A stretch of 64,000 bases of DNA from Hydra vulgaris. Taxonomy: Eukaryota; Cnidaria; Hydrozoa; Anthoathecata; Hydridae. The notes beneath the pieces were generated by a model, which worked only from the letters and a program-made list of their open reading frames with translations, ran no database searches and was not told where the DNA came from. The number at the start of each line of letters is the position of its first letter. Positions within the stretch are counted from its first letter, which is position 1. Below, one piece after another: positions 1,761 through 63,620 of the stretch. Location of the stretch: contig NC_088934.1 in the NCBI RefSeq assembly GCF_038396675.1, forward strand, positions 51,075,001 to 51,139,000, in the 5' to 3' direction. The translations under genes were made by a program, and so were the position numbers.

Positions 1761-4700
1761 ATGTCAAGCATTCAAGCTAAACGTAGAATCAGAACCGTTA
1801 ACATAAAACTTTTACATAAATTATTCGAAAAATCGTTAGAGTTGATTGAACGAACTGACGACGAAAACCAGTTTAATTACTTAAGTGACTTAAAAGATAC
1901 ATTAAACGAAAAATATAATAAAGTTATCCAGTTGGATGAAGAGATATCTTTACTAATTGAGGACGAGGATGAGTTAGAGAATGAACTAGAATCTTCTACA
2001 GAATTTAATCTTACATTTAAAAACGAAATATCTAAAATTAGTAAACAACTTAAAAAATTTGATCTTAAAACTGACTGTAATAGCACCCTTAGCAGCTTCA
2101 AAAACAAGACAGTAAAATTACCTGTTTTAAAATTAGATAATTTTGATGGTAAACCTGAAAAATGGACATCCTTTATAGAAAACTTTGATTGTGCCATTAA
2201 TGCAAACAATGATCTGTCGGGAATACAGAAGATGACATATCTTAGGAATTTATTAAGAGGTCCAGCCTTATCATCCATATCAGGTCTTAGTCTTTCTAAT
2301 GAAAACTACAAAGTAGCCTTGGACATTCTTAAAGAACGTTATGACAATAAGCAAAACATGATATCTTCCCACATGAAAAAACTTTTATCATTAGAAAGAG
2401 TGCACAATTTAAACAAAATAGACAGGTTAAGATATTTATTAGATAGTATTGAAATTCAAATAAGGAGCCTCGAGAACCTTAAAATTACCAGTGAAATGTA
2501 CGGACCACTCCTTATACCAATTATACTTCAGAAAATACCAGACGAACTTAACTTAATTATAAATAGACAAATTGATAACAACAGTACATGGGATGTCATG
2601 ACAGTCATTAATATTTTGAAAACAGAAATTCGTGCCAGAGAACAAGTGTCATTAAATTTAAATAATAATGGGGATATAAGTTACACAGCTGAGACATTTT
2701 TTACTAGTAATAATAACTATAAAGAACCGAATCATAATAGAAACCCTCAATATAAATTTAGTAATAAAATTAAAGAAAAATTATATTTCGATCGTAATAG
2801 TCCAACTAATCTTCAACAATTTGTCAAATGTATTTTTTGTGATAAACCACATAGATCTCAATATTGTAAGTCAATAACAAACATTCAAAATAGAAAAAGA
2901 ATCATTAGTGACAAACACCTTTGCTTTAAATGTTTGGGAAGTGGACATGTATCAAAAAACTGTCGATCACGTATTAGATGTTTTAAATGTGGTAATCACC
3001 ATCACGTAGCACTGTGTCTAGAACAACAACATAATGAACTGCAAAATAAAGGTGAGCTAACTGCAATTTCAGGTAATGATAATCAGTCTATCTTACTACA
3101 AACTGCTTCCACTGATGTATTTGACAGAAATAGCAAATTACATAATTGTAGGATACTCTTTGACAATTGTTCTCAACTTAGCTACATATCGCCTGATTTA
3201 TGTCGTAAATTAAAACTTAAATCTATTGGTAAAAAGAACATTAACATCAAGACATTCGGAAATAATAACACTAAAGAAAGATTGGAAAAAGTTGAGCTAA
3301 AAGTCAAATGTTTATTTGGAAGGATTATAAAAATTATTTGTTACGTAAAAGATATTTGTGCACCTATTAACGGTCAATATATAAACCTTGCTCAAGAAAA
3401 GTATAAACACTTACATAATTTAAGACTTGCTGATAGTAATTTGCAAAACGGTAACTTGAGAATTGATGTCTTGATTGGGGCAGATTATTATTGGTTATTT
3501 ATTGAAAATTCTATTATTAGGGGAAATCATTTTGATCCAATTGCCATTAGATCCAAACTAGGTTATTTATTAAGTGGTCCTATAAATGTTAATAATATGT
3601 TTAAAGTTAAAAAATATGATTGTTGGGTAAACACAGCACATGTCATGTTAGTAGGATCAAATTCATCTCCTGATTCATTGTTGAAGGAATCCATGACATC
3701 AATTTGGGGTGTTGGTGAAATGAACGAATGTAATTTAGAAGTTGTTGATAGGTTTCGTCACACCATTAAATATGATAATACCCTTAAACGTTATAATGTT
3801 AACTTGCCCTTTAAAGAAAACCATCCACCACTCAGTGATAATTACAATTTCTGCATCAAACGTTTTAAAAGTCTTCAGAAGAAATTAGGTAAAGATGATT
3901 GGCTACTTGAATCATATAACAATGTTTTTAAAGAACAATTACAGCAAGGCATTATAGAACCAATTATTGAAGAAAATAAAATTGAAAACGCTCACTATCT
4001 ACCACACCAGCCAGTGTTAAGGAATGATAAAATTACCACTAAAGTCAGGATTGTTTTTGATGCAAGCAGTTCTGTCGATGGCCCTTCATTAAATGATTGT
4101 TTATACCCAGGACCATCTTTGACCACTTCATTATATGGAATTCTCCTACGTTTTCGTGCCCAAAAAATTGCCTTTGTGGCAGACATTGAAAAAGCCTTTT
4201 TACAGATTGCCTTAGCTCCTGCGGATCGTGATTATGTTAGATTTTTATGGTTCAAGAACATTAACACGCTCAATAAAGTCAATATATTTACTCAAGAAAT
4301 TATTTCCTATAGAATATGCAGGGTTCTATTTGGAGTTACCTCATCATCCTTTCTTCTTACTGCTACTCTCATTACGCATGCTGAAAAATACCTTATAGAT
4401 GACCCTGTATTTGTTCATAAATTATCAAATTCCTTACATGTCAATGATCTTAACTCAGGAGCGGACTCAGTTGACTCAGCTTTCGACTTTTATAAAAAAT
4501 GTCATGTTCGATTAAAAGAAGCTGGCTTTACTCTTAGAAAATTCGAATCGAACTGCAAACACCTTGAAAATCTGGTTAATGAACAAAACTTTACATCCTT
4601 TAATATAACTAAAGTATTAGGATTATTATGGAATAAAAAAGAAGACAAGTTAATCTTTGATTTTAGAAACTTAATACACAATGATGACTTAAATCCAACG

Positions 4701-6949
4701 AAACGTAAAGTTCTTCAATTTATAGCAAGCATTTTCGACCCACTCGGAATAGTTAATCCATTTATAGTGAAGTGTAAAATATTTTTTCAAAAACTATGTA
4801 TCGACAAACTTAACTGGGACAAGCCTCTGGAGGGTAAAACGTTATTGGTGTGGCAAGCCATTATCAATGACATTAAAACATCTAAACCCATTATCATTCC
4901 CAGGTGGTACCATAATCATTATCCAAATCAGGTTGTTGACTTGTCATTACATGGATTCAGTGATGCTAGTAACAGTGCATATGGTTGTTGTATATACTTA
5001 TTATGTTCATTTAATGATAAGCATGTAAGTTGTTCGCTTATAACTGCTAAGTCTAGGATTGCCCAAATTAAAAATACCTCCATTCCCCGATTAGAATTAA
5101 AGGCAGCATTATTATTAGCTGAAACGATGTCAGCAGTTAAAAAAGAACTATACCCTGTTCTTAAGTTCAAACAAATATTGTGTTGGTGTGATTCTACAAT
5201 AGTACTACATTGGATTAATAATACTGATAAAGTTATGCAGCCCTTTTTCCAAGAGAGAATTAAAAAAATAATCCGGCAGACATAGTATCCAGAGGCACAA
5301 ACTTAAAAGACTTATTCGATAATAAAATATGGTTCAATGGACCAACACTTCTTTACAATGATCCCAAGAATTGGCCAAAATTTGAACTAAGAAATTTAAT
5401 TGATAAAATTGAAGAAGTCACTACTAATTTAGTTTTAAATGACAATTATTTAAACTTAAATATGATAGATATTACTCGATTTAGTAACTATTTGCATTTA
5501 TTAAGAGTTACAGCATTGGTCTTACGATTTATAACTAATTTAAAGCTTAAAAGAGATAAAAAGCAATTAAAATTATCTAATTTAGATTCAATTGAAATAG
5601 AAAATGCATTAAAGATTTGGGTTATGTTCGTTCAAAGATCAATTACTAGTGATAAAAATTTTAGGCAACTCCAGCTAGACCTAAACTTGCAAAATGTAGA
5701 TGGAATTATACGATGCATTGGTCGACTTCAAAATGCACCAATTACATATGACGCAAAAAATCCAATATTCCTACCTCGAAATTTAGAATTTACGAACCTA
5801 CTAATTAATTACAACCATTCTTTAGTTATGCACAATGGGATTAAAGAAACTTTAAATCAAATACGAACTCAATTTTGGATACCTAAAGCACGAAACCACA
5901 TTAAAAAACTGATTAAAAAATGCTATATTTGTAAACGCTTTGAAGGACTGCCTTATTCGTATCCTTCTCCCCCACCATTACCCTTATGTCGTTTAAATAA
6001 TGATCATGCATTCAAATTTACAGGTGTAGATTATGCAGGACCATTATATGTTAAAAATATTTATGAAGGAGATAATTTATATAAAGTGTGGATATTTTTA
6101 TTTACATGTGCTACTACACGCGCTTTATTTTTAGATCTCGTTCCGGACACTTCAGCTGAATCGTGCATTAGAAGTTTACGGAGATTTTTTTCAAAACGTG
6201 GCACACCAACCGAAATCATCTCAGACAATGGATCGCAATTCACATCTAATCTTACTCAAAACTTTGCTTCATCTCTCGGTATCATGTTGCATTTCAACAT
6301 CCCCGCTGCTCCGTGGTGGGGAGGGTTCTTTGAACGACTAGTTGGATCCACTAAACGCTGTCTTCGTAAAATAATCTTAAAAGCCAAGCTATCATATGAA
6401 GAACTATTAATATTTATTGCCGAAGTAGAATCAATATTAAACAATCGACCAATTACATTTATGTATGAATCGCCTGGAGATGCACCACTGACCCCTAATC
6501 ATTTAATATACGGAAGATCAACAAACTTTAAAGCTATTAACGACAAAACATATGAAACAAACTTGAATACCCGAAGTAAGTACATAGAAAATATACTAAA
6601 TCATTATTGGCAAAAATGGGAAAAAGAATATGTAACGGAGCTAAGAGAGTTCCACAAATTTAAGAAAAATAAAGGAACAAATAAAATAGCCGTTAACGAC
6701 GTTGTACTGATTTACGACTCGGACACCAAACGTGGTTATTGGAAAACAGGCATAGTACAGAGCCTCATTAAATCAGCTGACGGAGTCATCCGTGCTGCTA
6801 AAGTTAAATACATTACTAATGGAAAAACGTCGTACATCAAAAGACCGATAAATAAACTATATTTGCTAGAAGCATCGAACACTCCCTCGAAAGTAATAAA
6901 AATCAAGTTCTGTGATGAAAATGACATTAATCATTTAGTAATAAACTAA
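1761..6949 (+). pseudogene. BEL/Pao gag-pol polyprotein, broken once
   Basis: Frame one runs 1761-5285 (1174 residues). It holds a gag region of the DUF1759 type (about residues 110-260), three Cys/His knuckles starting near Cys357, Cys388 and Cys407, an aspartic protease with Asp468 in FDNCSQ, RT with Asp808 in VADIEKAF, and the start of RNase H (GFSDAS). The second RT metal motif, usually YVDD, reads HVND with Asn895 in place of the first Asp. At about 5268-5270 the frame jumps: the NPAD-S-R-G motif after RNase H follows at once in frame two, so a short segment of non-triplet length is missing. Frame two runs open from 5270 to 6949, including codons before the first ATG at 5462. It holds an integrase zinc finger, an integrase core with the D-D-E triad at 6029, 6224 and 6332, and a C-terminal DUF5641-like domain. 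Product: reverse transcription and integration of the element; inactive here. Confidence 0.93.
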
Positions 6950-41674: not shown

Positions 41675-42706
41675 TTATATAGGTCCATTAATTGGTGGTA
41701 AAAACAAATCTTTTCGTAAATGAGAGGATATTGATCCGATTTGTTTTTTATTATCTTTTTCAAATGAGTGTTCGCTCAGTTCTTCGTTCACGCGTGTTAA
41801 AAGTCGAACAACGTCCATTTTATGGGTGTTTTTTTTAAAAGCATTAACAACATCTTGAATAAAATACGAACCTTCCTTTAAATTTCGCCATGAATTATAA
41901 CCTAGAACTGTTGAATAGGCGTACAAAAAATCGATTTCATCAGGTACCTCCAGTATGTTCGCTTTGTTTGTCTTTTTTTGTCTTTTTTTGAATCCTCGTC
42001 TGTTAACCTTTTTTAATGATTCCATATTTTCTCCTCCTCGACAAGCTTGAATTAAAAAAAATTTTGGTTTATTAGCTAACGCTTCAGTGCAAAAAATATT
42101 TGTTAGTTTCCTTATACTTAAAGCTTCGTCTATGGAATAGAGTTCCCCCTCCTTTCCATGTGTTAGTACTGCCACCACACAACAACTCATTGATGAATAA
42201 TTTTCATTTGCTGCCTTCTCCAGTCCTTCTAATACATCAGTTAATTTGGGATTATCAAATCTATCTATTTTAAAACCTAATTTTAGGAAAAGATCACATA
42301 AATTATCTGCATCAACATCTGTACCATCTCTAGGGTATTTATACATTTCAGAAGATTTCATAAAATTTTTTACATTTATTATTGTTAAAGTTCCTCTTGG
42401 AAAAGTGTTGGTATTATAAAAGTTATCAGAGTTAAACTTGAAATCAACCTTCGATAAATCGATTCTTGGCTCATTGGGAAAATATTGTGTGTGCGAAAAT
42501 ATTATTTTATCATCGTAATTCTTTTTAAAATCGTACGTTTTATGTCTACTTAAGACTTCCGATATTTCTTGGGTATTTGAAACACGTTCTTTACTTTGAG
42601 TCGATGTCGTTTTAAGCTTGTTTGGATTTGCATCAATAACATCTAAAGACTCAGTGTCATTCAAAGTGTCATTGCATCTCTTTTTAATGTTATTCAGATT
42701 ACCCAT
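41675..42706 (-). CDS. Caspase (cysteine protease, executioner-like)
   Basis: A 343-residue uninterrupted frame with the full caspase fold. An N-terminal region of about 100 residues shows no CARD or death-effector pattern. The p20 part has LTIINVKNF (107-115), RDGTDVDA with S1-pocket Arg126, catalytic His183 in LTHGKEGE and catalytic Cys222 in LIQACRGGE. A Lys/Arg-rich linker (231-250) precedes the p10 part, with DFLYAYST, GYNSWRN (Arg274) and GSYFIQDVVNAF. All catalytic and Asp-binding residues are present, so an active Asp-specific protease for apoptosis is expected. Asp256 or Asp259 are candidate processing sites. The length is near that of caspase-3/7-type enzymes. The coding part has no intron. 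The start ATG at 42706 follows aaaca and is the first in frame; an upstream 5' UTR exon is possible ('ataacag' lies 14 bases before it). This is the only convincing host gene in the window. Confidence 0.93.
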   Translation of the reverse strand: MGNLNNIKKRCNDTLNDTESLDVIDANPNKLKTTSTQSKERVSNTQEISEVLSRHKTYDFKKNYDDKIIFSHTQYFPNEPRIDLSKVDFKFNSDNFYNTNTFPRGTLTIINVKNFMKSSEMYKYPRDGTDVDADNLCDLFLKLGFKIDRFDNPKLTDVLEGLEKAANENYSSMSCCVVAVLTHGKEGELYSIDEALSIRKLTNIFCTEALANKPKFFLIQACRGGENMESLKKVNRRGFKKRQKKTNKANILEVPDEIDFLYAYSTVLGYNSWRNLKEGSYFIQDVVNAFKKNTHKMDVVRLLTRVNEELSEHSFEKDNKKQIGSISSHLRKDLFLPPINGPI

Positions 42707-55993: not shown

Positions 55994-58187
55994 TTTTATA
56001 CGAATATTTAGGCTCTTCCTAATGAATTAAAAACTTTTAAGATTTTAAAAAAAACCTATTTAGCTTCAAATTTTGAATGACTTAAAAGTATATTTTGAAT
56101 GACTTAAACGAACAAGTTTGGAAAAGTTTTTCCAAAAAAGCCTTATAGTCACACTTCATTTCTTCTAGTTTGCTATTGTGTCTCTATTTATTTATATTAA
56201 AAATAACATTATTTTTCTCAAAACTATTTATTTTAAAAATGCATCCTCAACAAATTCATGTCTTTTGTAGTTTCAGACAGGGAAGACATGGTTGTTAAAA
56301 CAAGACAACTATTGCCAAAACGACATTTTTTGATAATTTTGTTAATGAGCCATGTTATCTTTTTTTTTCTTCTAAAAATCAACAGCGAGAAAAATGACTT
56401 TAAGTATCTCTAAATCATTTTAAGTTTTCACTTGTACAAAATAGTTTGAAGTTTTAAATGATTGGGATAAACGTTACATTAAGTTGATTCAAGATTTTAT
56501 AGCGAGAACACATGAAAAGAAAACATTTTGTTTGTAGGACATACTTTGGCTTTATTATTGTAAGATAATATAATTGTATAACTGTTTAGAATATTTTTCA
56601 TATAATATATAAATTAACAAATTGTAGCTATTACTAAGGCTAAAATTTTTTAGAGTTTTGATTTTTCAACTCGCTAATGTCTATGCAAATTTTAATTTTT
56701 TTTTTTGTACCCTAGGTTATCCAAAAGAAGAAATAAATATTAGGTAAAAAAAAATCAAAAAAAAGCAATATCGAAAAAATATGATAATATAAATAATAAA
56801 TATTATCAGTAAAAATAGAGTGTAAATATCAATTTAAATATTTTTCTAAAATAAAACTTCTTATTCTATAGGATTTGTCAATGTAATCTAAACCATTGTT
56901 ATTTGCGTTTTTTAAATTCCCAGATATCTGTATACAAAATTTAAAAACTAAAATCCCTTTTTTAAATTTAAATTTGTAGTGTTTGAAGTGTGGATACGAG
57001 TTTTAAAAAATAAGACTATCGATTTATTTGTCCACTTTTAAACAATAAGAAGTCGACAAATAAGTCGACAAATGTAATTAAAACTTTGTAATATGTAGTA
57101 TCAGAATATATTGTTTTGTCGAAATAAATTATAATAAAAATAATAAAGTATCGTATCATACATAAAGTGCACATACATCGAATAAATTTTTGGTTTAGGC
57201 AGGCAGTCAATAAATAAAAAATAAAAAAATTGAATCGTAATTATTCATTTATTTTTTGACATTATTCAATTTTTAATTATTTCAATTTAGTCAATTTCTG
57301 TTAACTTCCATTTTATTCTGCTTTTTAGATTTTTAATACCATTTCTTTTTTCACAAATTCAGTATAATTCTCTATTTTTTATTAATCAAAAAAGTTTCTT
57401 TTCTAATTAATTCAATTAGGCTGTTTTCTACACCGTTACTACTACACTCATTTTGTTTTAAACTCAAATAAAAAAATTAGAAAAATAAAAATGCAAAAAC
57501 TAAAACAAAATTGACATTCCTAAAGCACTTTCTAAAAATAAAATTAATTTGATATAATTTCCTATAAGACCAAAATTTTATCAGAAAATCAATTTAAAAA
57601 AGCAAAGCCATGTATATTTTATTTTAAAAGTGAGATTCATATTTGAAACCTTTAAAAGTAACAACTGAATCGATGTATACAAAAACATTCTAAGTCATAA
57701 AAACCATTTTTTCGGTGAACAAGAAAAAACTTATTAAATCCAAAATTATTACTTTAATAAATTCAAAAAAAAAATCTGGATGCTATTTGACATCTTAAAA
57801 TATAAGATTTGTTAAAAAATATATCGAAATTTGTGATACATATAAATGTGTTATACATAGTTAAAGTTGCCTGACTTGAAAATAGTTTTTATGACTTAAA
57901 ACGTTTTTGAATACATCGATTCAATTGTTATACGATTATAAATACAATTCATTACACACGGCTCTTTATAATTTATTTTATTTAATAAATTTATGTTTTT
58001 ACTTTTTATATTTCAATATATGCATAAAAATAGACATATATACATATACATATATATATATATATATATACATATACAGTATTGGACAAAACATTTTCAA
58101 CCAACATCGAGCAATGCTAAAAAGTGTTCCTAATTATACATGTCTTAAAAACAAAACGAACTATACTACTACAGCCAAACAGTTCAG

Positions 58188-58223
58188 GAGTCTGGAGTAA
58201 TAGCATGCCATAACTCCAGACTC
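58188..58223. repeat. Small inverted repeat in Tc1-like 5' region
   Basis: gagtctggagt and actccagactc, 11-bp perfect arms separated by 14 bases. Confidence 0.85.
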
Positions 58224-58350
58224 AGAGCAATAAGCTGACAGGTGACAACACACAGGCAGAATTTCGTTGACAAGTGACATATTGCAGCGGACAAGTGACA
58301 TTTTGCAGCGGACGTGACAACGTCACCAAAGTTTTTTGATAATTAAAGAA

Positions 58351-58523
58351 AGTATCCAGAAGTTTCCAGAAGTTTCCAGAAGTATGCAGAAGCTTCCAGA
58401 AGTTTCCAGAAGAAGCATCTGGATGCATCCAGTAGCATCCAGAAATATCCAGAAACATTCAGAAGCATCCAGACGCATCCAGAAGCTTCCAGAAACATTG
58501 AAAGGAAGCATCTAGAATCTTCC
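58351..58523 (+). promoter_or_regulatory. Extended heat-shock-element array
   Basis: From 58351 to 58410 six 10-bp units agtttccaga (with variants) give the strict HSF pattern nTTCnnGAAn: alternating TTC and GAA every five bases, ten of twelve pentamers perfect (exceptions ATC near 58354 and ATG near 58384). From 58431 to 58500 seven more 10-bp units of agaagcatcc type continue the phase with ATC often in place of TTC. A last GAAtcTTC lies at 58515-58522. A typical heat-shock promoter has three to six pentamers per element, so this is unusually long. It lies about 30-200 bp upstream of the TATA box. Confidence 0.85.
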
Positions 58524-58550
58524 ATAAAAGGTTCACACAGATTCATTTTA

Positions 58551-58587
58551 CTATATAAGAGACTTGTAAATCGACATGTAATTCAGT
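58551..58587 (+). promoter_or_regulatory. Core promoter: TATA box and initiator
   Basis: ctatataag (TATA from 58552) is followed 33 bases later by ttcagt (A at 58585), a TCAGT-type initiator. Spacing from the TATA box to the initiator A fits a focused promoter. The leader that follows (58586-58825) is A-rich, lacks an ATG in a good context apart from one at 58594 in a different reading phase, and contains possible splice donors (gtaaat 58771, gtaagc 58795). Confidence 0.65.
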
Positions 58588-58825
58588 CAGTATATGGAAG
58601 TCAATCAGTCAGTATTATCAAGACAGTTTATCGAAGTGAGTTTTATCAAAGAATTTTATCAAAGAACATCAATACAAGAAGTGAAATACAACAAGTGTTT
58701 CATTACATCAATACAATCCACATCCAACCAAGACGTTGTGTTCCACAGAGCATTATTGAATCATCACAAGGTAAATAAAACACGGTAAGCCTTGAGAAGC
58801 GTGATTATTTATATTTATTATTTCT

Positions 58826-59842
58826 ATGACTTCATGTGCAAAAATGGCTCCCGACAGTCTTAAATTGGAGCTAAGAAAGAAAATTATTGGCGATTACGTA
58901 AGAGGAATGTCACAAAAAAGTATTTGTGATAAATATCGCGTGAATAAATGGACCGTATCAAGACTTCTAAATATCGTTCTACGGGGAAGTTGGGAGCAGA
59001 TAACAAAGGTGGGAGACCGCGTTCCACCACCTCTAGAGAGGATTCTATGATCGTCAGATTCGTCAAGAAGGATCCCTGGATATCATCAGTCGAGATACAA
59101 AAGCAATTAGAGCTGCCTGTATCAGACCGGACAATCAGACGACGTGCTGTTGAAGCAGGATTGTTTTCTCGACGCCCTGCAAAAAAACCGCTGATTTCAC
59201 TAAAAATCCAGAAGAAAAGACTCCTGTTTGCTACATCTCATACTGACTCGAATGTGCAGAAACGGCGAACTGTCCTGTTTAGTGATGAATCGAAGGTCAG
59301 CATCATTGGAAGCAATGGCATTTGCCGTGTACGTCTACCGACTGGAAAACGCATCGATTTACGTTACTGCCATAAGACCGTGAAGCATGGTGGAGGCAAT
59401 GTAATGGTCTGGGGGTGTTTTTCTGCTAACGGTCTAGGTCCAATACATCGAAACAATGGAAAAATGGACCGTTTCATGTATAAAAATATCCTGAATGATG
59501 TTACCTCATGCTGAATGGAATATGCCAATAAAATGGGTTTTTCAGCAAGACAACGATCCGAAACACACTGCAAAAGTAGTCAAGCAGTGGTTTCAGGACA
59601 ACCACCTATCGGTGATGAATTGGCCGCCTCAATCTCCGGATCTCAACTCAAAAGAGAATCTGTGGGAGATCGTCAACCGCAGAATTACTCGTGAAGGTGT
59701 TCGTAATAAGGATCAACTGTTTGAACAAATCCAAAAGGCCTAGGCAGCGATTCTACAAAGTTTTATTGATCACCTGATCGAATCTATGCCTCAAAAATGC
59801 AAGGCTGTGATCGACAACAAAAGATTCGCCACGAAATATTGA
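58826..59842 (+). pseudogene. Tc1-like DD34E transposase, few breaks
   Basis: Start options are 58826 (MTSCAK) or 58844 (MAPDSL, better context). The paired-like DNA-binding domain [33 protein letters not shown] shifts frame near 58950 into [23 protein letters not shown], then [13 protein letters not shown] and the catalytic domain: VLFSDESKV (first Asp), [13 protein letters not shown], then after a shift near 59500 VFQQDNDPKHTAK (second Asp) and SPDLNSKENLWE (Glu). There are 34 residues between the last Asp and the Glu. A TAG at 59741 replaces what is usually Trp in KAWAAI, and the frame then runs to the TGA at 59840. All three catalytic residues are kept. Two shifts and one stop make this copy inactive, but decay is light. 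Confidence 0.9.
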
Positions 59843-60102
59843 TAGCGAAATACAGTTTGGTCAACATTTTGTCAAGTTGCACTTGTTTTTTCCAGAAGAA
59901 ATCAACTTTTTTGTAATACTTTTGATTAATTTATTAATTTTCGTGTACAAATGATGAACTTTGTGATGAATAAAACTTAAAGAACTTTGTCTCTAAACAG
60001 TTACATTGTTATTTCTCTAAATTGAAAAAATGCAGCACTTTTATATAAAGACACAAAAATAGAATTATTTTGTTGCACTCTATATGTCCGACACTGAATA
60101 CA

Positions 60103-61587: not shown

Positions 61588-63620
<2,033 letters not shown>

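Follow-up and report, generated by a model that had tools for sequence, protein, structure and literature searches.

A high-copy Tc1-type transposon family of Hydra vulgaris carries a putative heat-shock promoter upstream of its transposase

A 64-kb stretch of the Hydra vulgaris genome (C15:51075001-51139000 in a 911.5-Mb assembly of 15 contigs; hereafter the window, whose own numbering is used throughout) contains at 58077-60096 a Tc1-type transposon of 2,020 bp. Upstream of its transposase frame stand a dense array of heat-shock elements (HSEs), a TATA box and an initiator. This module lies inside the ends of the element and is present in most of the copies that we sampled from the genome. 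Of the hallmarks of a heat-shock promoter it shows contiguous alternating nGAAn/nTTCn units, a core promoter a short way downstream and the HSE form found ahead of the host's hsp70 genes. We consider it likely that heat-shock factor (HSF) drives transcription of the transposase upon stress, from a heat-shock-type promoter that belongs to the element itself. HSF binding, heat induction and transposition tied to stress we infer from the anatomy of the motifs.

Results

The HSE array and core promoter

The strong part of the array consists of six decamers at 58354-58411 (ATCcaGAA, TTCcaGAA, TTCcaGAA, ATGcaGAA, TTCcaGAA and TTCcaGAA), which follow each other at a 10-bp phase. Downstream come seven weaker decamers (58417-58484), a perfect TTCCAGAA at 58487 and, 3' of the latter, a GAA-TTC pair at 58515 that reads GAATCTTC in this copy. 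The TATATAA box begins at 58552 and the A of the initiator lies at 58585; the distance of 33 bp between the T of the TATA box and this A is equal in the family consensus. A preliminary description of the stretch had listed six phased decamers with ten of twelve pentamers perfect, seven weaker ones, a final GAA-TTC pair and a TCAGT-type initiator 33 bases after a TATA box. All of these parts were recovered, and the perfect TTCCAGAA, which had not been singled out before, is added to them.

Within 185 bp the array holds seven perfect three-unit and two perfect five-unit HSEs. The seven three-unit HSEs (58359 to 58482) are also the only ones in the entire 64-kb window. The best 60-bp match to (TTCnnGAAnn)6 lies at 58354 and agrees at 33/36 positions. 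The chance level was set by shuffling the window 20 times in two-base blocks, and the best match of each shuffle reached 21-24. Downstream of the array, region 58827-60096 contains a single two-unit HSE and zero three-unit HSEs. A natural control is offered by a related Tc1 element at 61914-63620, where three-unit HSEs are completely absent (counted to 63622). Both ends of this relative are identical for 57 letters.

Presence of the module in other copies

Copies of the family were sampled in two ways. A first look at the genome with the promoter region (58240-58840) as query yielded 1,265 candidates, of which 40 were scored. Strong matches (89-100%) lie at 40 places, with three further small ones, and the loci fetched number 30, the window copy included. 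The array and TATATAAG are found in the promoter segment of all 29 other loci and TCAGTCAG in 26 of them, while 27 align to the 5' end of the element, 23 to the 3' end and 22 to both. Because a sample chosen by its promoter is biased by that promoter, the search was repeated with a query taken from the transposase only (58840-59840). Of 1,505 candidates 40 were scored, and 30 loci, among them the window copy, were fetched. Here the array is kept in 26 of the 29 others (in L050 only in part), and TATATAAG occurs within 1.5 kb upstream in 20 of the 29. Both ends were recognised in 22 of the 30 loci examined, and 18 of these 22 have TA on both sides. Both samples consist of best-scoring rather than random copies, with older or more decayed copies unrepresented.

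The three copies that lack the array show an internal deletion (L034), a 5'-side truncation (L036) and a deletion beside masked bases (L043). Array length leaves an equal remainder modulo 10 in 18 of the 26 segments measured (window included); as the length mostly shifts by 10 bp, slippage keeps the HSEs in phase. One copy, L054, has ten three-unit HSEs upstream, and just 5' of the TATA box the family majority reads GAAtcTTCcaGAA. In the leader of L044 we noticed by eye an insertion of 250 bp (~1105-1355 of that locus) with an end that resembles a tRNA, perhaps a short interspersed nuclear element.

The expectation that the array would be conserved between the end and the transposase in further copies is strongly supported by these samples. 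That it stands directly ahead of a DD34E transposase is true of the family; the window copy, whose transposase is broken, has no working gene behind the array. The preliminary description had itself envisaged that other family members might lack the array and that this copy had simply landed beside a host heat-shock promoter. The layout does resemble that of an hsp70 promoter, and at first the window copy was the only one in view. However, the 26 array-bearing copies have the module elsewhere in the genome, between end and transposase, and the upstream regions of nine Hydra hsp70 genes show no blastn similarity to it. The genome copies led us to reject such a landing, which retains practically no probability.

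A different question is how the element came by the module. It might have been gained late, for instance through capture of a promoter or insertion of a solo long terminal repeat (LTR) between end and transposase, which concerns its origin only and is compatible with a heat-shock function. In favour of this the 5' part measures ~750 bp; in the related Tc1 of the window, which lacks the array, it measures ~413 bp. Candidates for a solo LTR (TG...CA with a duplication) are several, short and of equal quality; none is convincing, and we judged them to be probably chance occurrences in AT-rich DNA. Moreover, L034, L036 and L043 share no empty form, and no exact empty-site copy was recognised. Late gain seems somewhat unlikely to us.

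Structure of the element and its transposase

Coordinates of the features are collected in Table 1. Other copies have ends corresponding to those of the window copy, which are CAGTATTGGACAAAAC at 58077 and ...GTCCGACACTG at 60096, and the two ends of the family agree with each other at 22/26 letters. The transposase opens at 58826, changes frame at ~58967 and ~59500 and meets a TAG at 59741. The window copy is dead: it cannot make transposase. Pfam domains were found in two of the four pieces scanned (HTH_Tnp_Tc3_2, 4.5e-18; DDE_3, 1.7e-10), the other two being without match. When the middle piece was used as a protein query, the matches included Hydra vulgaris records P0082 and P0083 (89% identity, covering a third of the query) and cluster P0001 with 229 members. 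This family protein has both domains, with 34 residues separating its second D from its E. By its domains, D-E spacing, ends and TA target the element belongs to the Tc1 family (DD34E) of Tc1/mariner. Across the 59 distinct sampled copies (58 plus the window) a transposase frame of at least 333 amino acids is found in seven; a strict QQD-34-E is present in five of these seven, and the first-D and DD34E motifs are both present in four.

Table 1. Features of the Tc1-type element in the window
Feature	Position	Strand	Remarks
5' terminal inverted repeat end	58077..58102	+	preceded by TA; 25/26 letters equal to the 5' end of other copies, CAGTATTGGACAAAACATTTGCAACC
Left arm, end to array	58103..58345	+	common to family copies, diverged in the window copy
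Strong HSE array, six phased decamers	58350..58413	+	10/12 pentamers perfect
Weaker decamers, mostly ATCcaGAA-like	58417..58494	+	last one is the perfect TTCCAGAA at 58487
TATA-proximal GAAtcTTC	58515..58522	+	three-unit GAAtcTTCcaGAA in most other copies; last unit lost in the window copy
TATATAA box	58552..58558	+	TATATAAG in 29/29 promoter-chosen copies
TCAGT-type initiator	58583..58588	+	predicted start A at 58585, in TTCAGTC
Leader, 241 nt	58585..58825	+	contains splice-donor-like AAGGTAAAT; common to family
Transposase frame, HTH_Tnp_Tc3_2 and DDE_3	58826..59842	+	broken: frame changes twice and has an internal stop
3' terminal inverted repeat end	60071..60096	-	21/26 letters equal to the family 3' end; followed by AA instead of TA

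The leader is the stretch between the predicted start and the first in-frame ATG of the transposase. By eye, an ATG 9 nt past the predicted start opens a frame of 64 codons within it (58594-58788). Given the splice-donor-like AAGGTAAAT, the leader may contain an intron or be trans-spliced. A longer open frame of 143 codons (58347-58775) spans array, TATA box and leader, and is listed as a protein in databases. A protein search with this array-leader frame gave seven clusters (P0121-P0127) that read through the array or the leader, one of them named Hydra vulgaris LOC124814402; P0126 is a Hydra vulgaris record. From the transposase search we obtained P0002, which reads from an array straight into the transposase, and a third protein search recovered the seven clusters and P0002 again. 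These records support, independently of the genome copies, that the module belongs to the element. Since gene callers list open frames, such clusters are no evidence of coding. The entries over 58347-58775 are probably spurious gene models derived from transposon promoters.

Comparison with the upstream regions of Hydra hsp70 genes

PF00012 yielded 44 matches in Hydra, and for the nine genes with the highest scores 1.2 kb of upstream sequence was taken (L126-L134). Among these regions are three nearly identical pairs, with 99-100% of 25-mers in common, so that about six are distinct. A perfect three-unit HSE is present in one of the nine. The form GAAnn(A/T)TCnnGAA, by contrast with its shuffle expectation of 0.01-0.05, occurs exactly once in each of them, 344-390 bases before the gene-side end. 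Its middle unit is ATC in eight of the nine, and seven read GAAAAATCnAGAA. The 'weaker' ATC units of the transposon array consequently match the form used by host hsp70 genes, which suggests that Hydra HSF may tolerate or prefer an ATC-middle HSE. We also noticed by eye that a CCCCCGT motif recurs ahead of the TATA box in the hsp70 upstream regions.

Counted in the same way, GAAnn(A/T)TCnnGAA occurs 10 times in the family-majority 5' part, 7 times in the window copy and 0 times in the rest of the 64-kb window. The 29 other transposase-chosen copies hold up to 10, and the sole ones without any are L034, L036 and L043. Blastn of the nine hsp70 upstream regions against the transposon promoter showed no similarity at E-values up to 1. 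The transposon promoter resembles these Hydra hsp70 upstream regions in motif and not in sequence.

Strong HSEs in the genome

The five-unit perfect HSE pattern GAAnnTTCnnGAAnnTTCnnGAA has 2,342 matches genome-wide, against 22 for the reversed control. The first 100 matches, all on contig C1 between 0.48 and 38.85 Mb, represent 65 distinct arrays, and the DNA around all 65 was inspected. Nearly all arrays (62/65) lie in the Tc1 family: 58 were assigned by left arm and leader, two by the left arm only and two by the leader only. Provided that this stretch of C1 is typical, extrapolation (2,342 x 65/100 x 62/65) gives ~1,450 family copies with at least one five-unit HSE.

The other three arrays (L061-L063; C1 at 34.64, 38.18 and 38.20 Mb) are part of a second repeat with HSEs, the copies of which are 77-81% alike over ~600-940 bp. 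It combines a dense HSE array with a TATA box in a promoter on the minus strand (L061 ~1615-1680, L062 ~1450-1510, L063 ~1582-1648); TATAAAAG is present in L062 and L063 and absent from L061. Three open frames of this repeat have no Pfam match over the cut-off. It may be a further mobile element with HSEs, or else a gene family. Searches of viral contigs returned 0 matches for the exact three-decamer pattern and 16 pattern matches for the transposase piece, none of them a relative.

Other features of the window

Two long open frames at 1761-6949 (1174 and 495 amino acids) look by eye like parts of a BEL/Pao-type retroelement. On the minus strand at 41675-42706 lies a caspase frame (Peptidase_C14, 3.8e-48), with 6wi4 as the best solved chain.

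Discussion

Several observations weigh against a promoter that serves to switch on the transposase under heat. Purifying selection on the HSE letters was looked for in the promoter- and the transposase-chosen copies, and no sign of it was seen. In the promoter-chosen copies the GAA and TTC letters are kept at 98.4%, against 98.1% for other array letters. Departure from the majority amounts to 3.1% in the array, 2.1% in the leader and 2.0% in the transposase (based on 22 of the 29 other transposase-chosen copies, 7 incomplete ones having been dropped). Furthermore, one HSE of the GAAnn(A/T)TCnnGAA form per hsp70 gene suggests that a Hydra hsp70 promoter does not need a dense array. The window copy, finally, combines a dead transposase with a reduced TATA-proximal HSE.

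When the window copy is compared with the same majority, the left arm (58077-58345) differs at 26/260 sites and the 3' part at 22/256, against 19/462 for promoter plus leader (p 0.002 versus the left arm, 0.018 versus the 3' part). Promoter plus leader differ no less than the transposase (45/1014, p 0.89). The lower divergence of promoter and leader is suggestive at most, as it concerns a single copy with a rearranged stretch in its left arm.

It might be argued that the array is a 10-bp minisatellite that happens to resemble HSEs, or a subterminal site for the transposase, without any role for HSF. The number of units varies by slippage, many units read ATCcaGAA instead of TTCcaGAA, and the core letters are no better kept than others, all of which would suit a minisatellite. 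Yet the ATC variant is the very form found in eight of the nine hsp70 upstream regions, and the array adjoins a TATA box and an initiator. A transposase site would moreover be expected at both ends, whereas the array is one-sided. On balance we find this explanation unlikely.

HSF1 trimers recognise contiguous inverted GAA units, and a TATA box and an initiator are parts of hsp promoters. Against this background we propose the following course of events. A high-copy DD34E Tc1-type family of Hydra carries as its 5' part a 10-bp-phased array, a TATA box, an initiator and a leader of 241 nt. On heat or proteotoxic stress, trimeric HSF1 would bind the contiguous nGAAn/nTTCn units and fire transcription at the position equal to 58585. 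The resulting burst of transposase could act on copies with matching ends. Copies with a dead transposase, such as the one in the window, would still carry a stress-responsive promoter to new sites. Exposure to 33 C for 90 min leads H. vulgaris to produce HSP70, according to the part of PMC2908143 available to us. A weak heat-shock response is reported for another species, H. oligactis.

The promoter might also be real and at the same time constitutive or stem-cell-specific, driven by another factor and with little effect of heat. TcMar-Tc1 as a whole is named among the putatively active, expressed Hydra families, and the available part of the same paper describes its expression in some cell populations and mentions no heat treatment; its main text has 0 occurrences of the term 'heat shock' (PMC12220107). 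That paper, as far as available, covers TcMar-Tc1 as a whole and not the HSE-bearing family. Besides, the two five-unit perfect HSEs of the window copy and the ten three-unit HSEs of L054 fit HSF best among the factors that we recall. A mainly constitutive promoter thus appears very unlikely, and we retain HSF as the probable driver.

If so, Hydra, whose heat-shock biology has been studied and whose stem cells are long-lived, would provide an animal case of a cut-and-paste transposon that expresses its own transposase from an ordered heat-shock promoter with a TATA box. Stress-triggered transposition, an old question, would become directly testable in Hydra, and maps of HSF binding in this animal would have to account for the HSE-bearing Tc1 family. 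One could go further and suppose that a single Tc1 family took over the strong HSF sites of Hydra, that heat mobilises it and that HSF binding is mainly a transposon matter. We offer this tentatively and would lean slightly against it. In that case the extrapolated ~1,450 copies would each bring several times the HSEs of the nine hsp70 upstream regions, and HSF binding to the family may compete with or rewire the heat-shock response of the host.

Comparison with known systems

The ordinary Tc1/mariner DD34E elements share with the Hydra family the HTH_Tnp_Tc3_2 and DDE_3 domains, the 34-residue D-E spacing, the TA target and the inverted ends; the ~750-bp 5' part with its HSE promoter sets the Hydra family apart. 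Towards hsp70 promoters the likeness consists of HSEs 5' of a TATA box, as in the metazoan layout, and of the GAAnn(A/T)TCnnGAA form. The difference lies in number (one such HSE in each of nine Hydra upstream regions against about ten in the transposon) and in the missing blastn similarity.

Among mobile elements the closest parallel is found in Caenorhabditis. According to the available part of PMC6927752, Helitrons account for more than half of the HSEs of C. elegans, and heat induces a full-length Helitron transposase gene whose promoter contains HSEs. There too a DNA transposon supplies dense HSE clusters. These Helitrons, however, are rolling-circle elements of nematodes supported by binding and RNA evidence, whereas in Hydra we deal with a cut-and-paste DD34E Tc1 known from its sequence, with a promoter ordered as array, TATA box and initiator. 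ONSEN, a copia-type retrotransposon of Arabidopsis, is named in that part of the paper as well (PMC6927752). Like the course of events proposed here, ONSEN is transcribed under heat, and it gives a heat response to genes near new insertions; unlike the Hydra family it is a plant retrotransposon that moves via an RNA copy.

In the titles and abstract starts returned by our literature searches we found no HSE-bearing Tc1 in Hydra or another cnidarian. A preprint on heat stress in cnidarians cites the Helitron case and, in its available part, reports no HSE-bearing transposon (PMC13104882). Helitrons and ONSEN are precedents; new in Hydra are the superfamily, the element being a cut-and-paste Tc1, the phylum of the host and a promoter with ordered parts.

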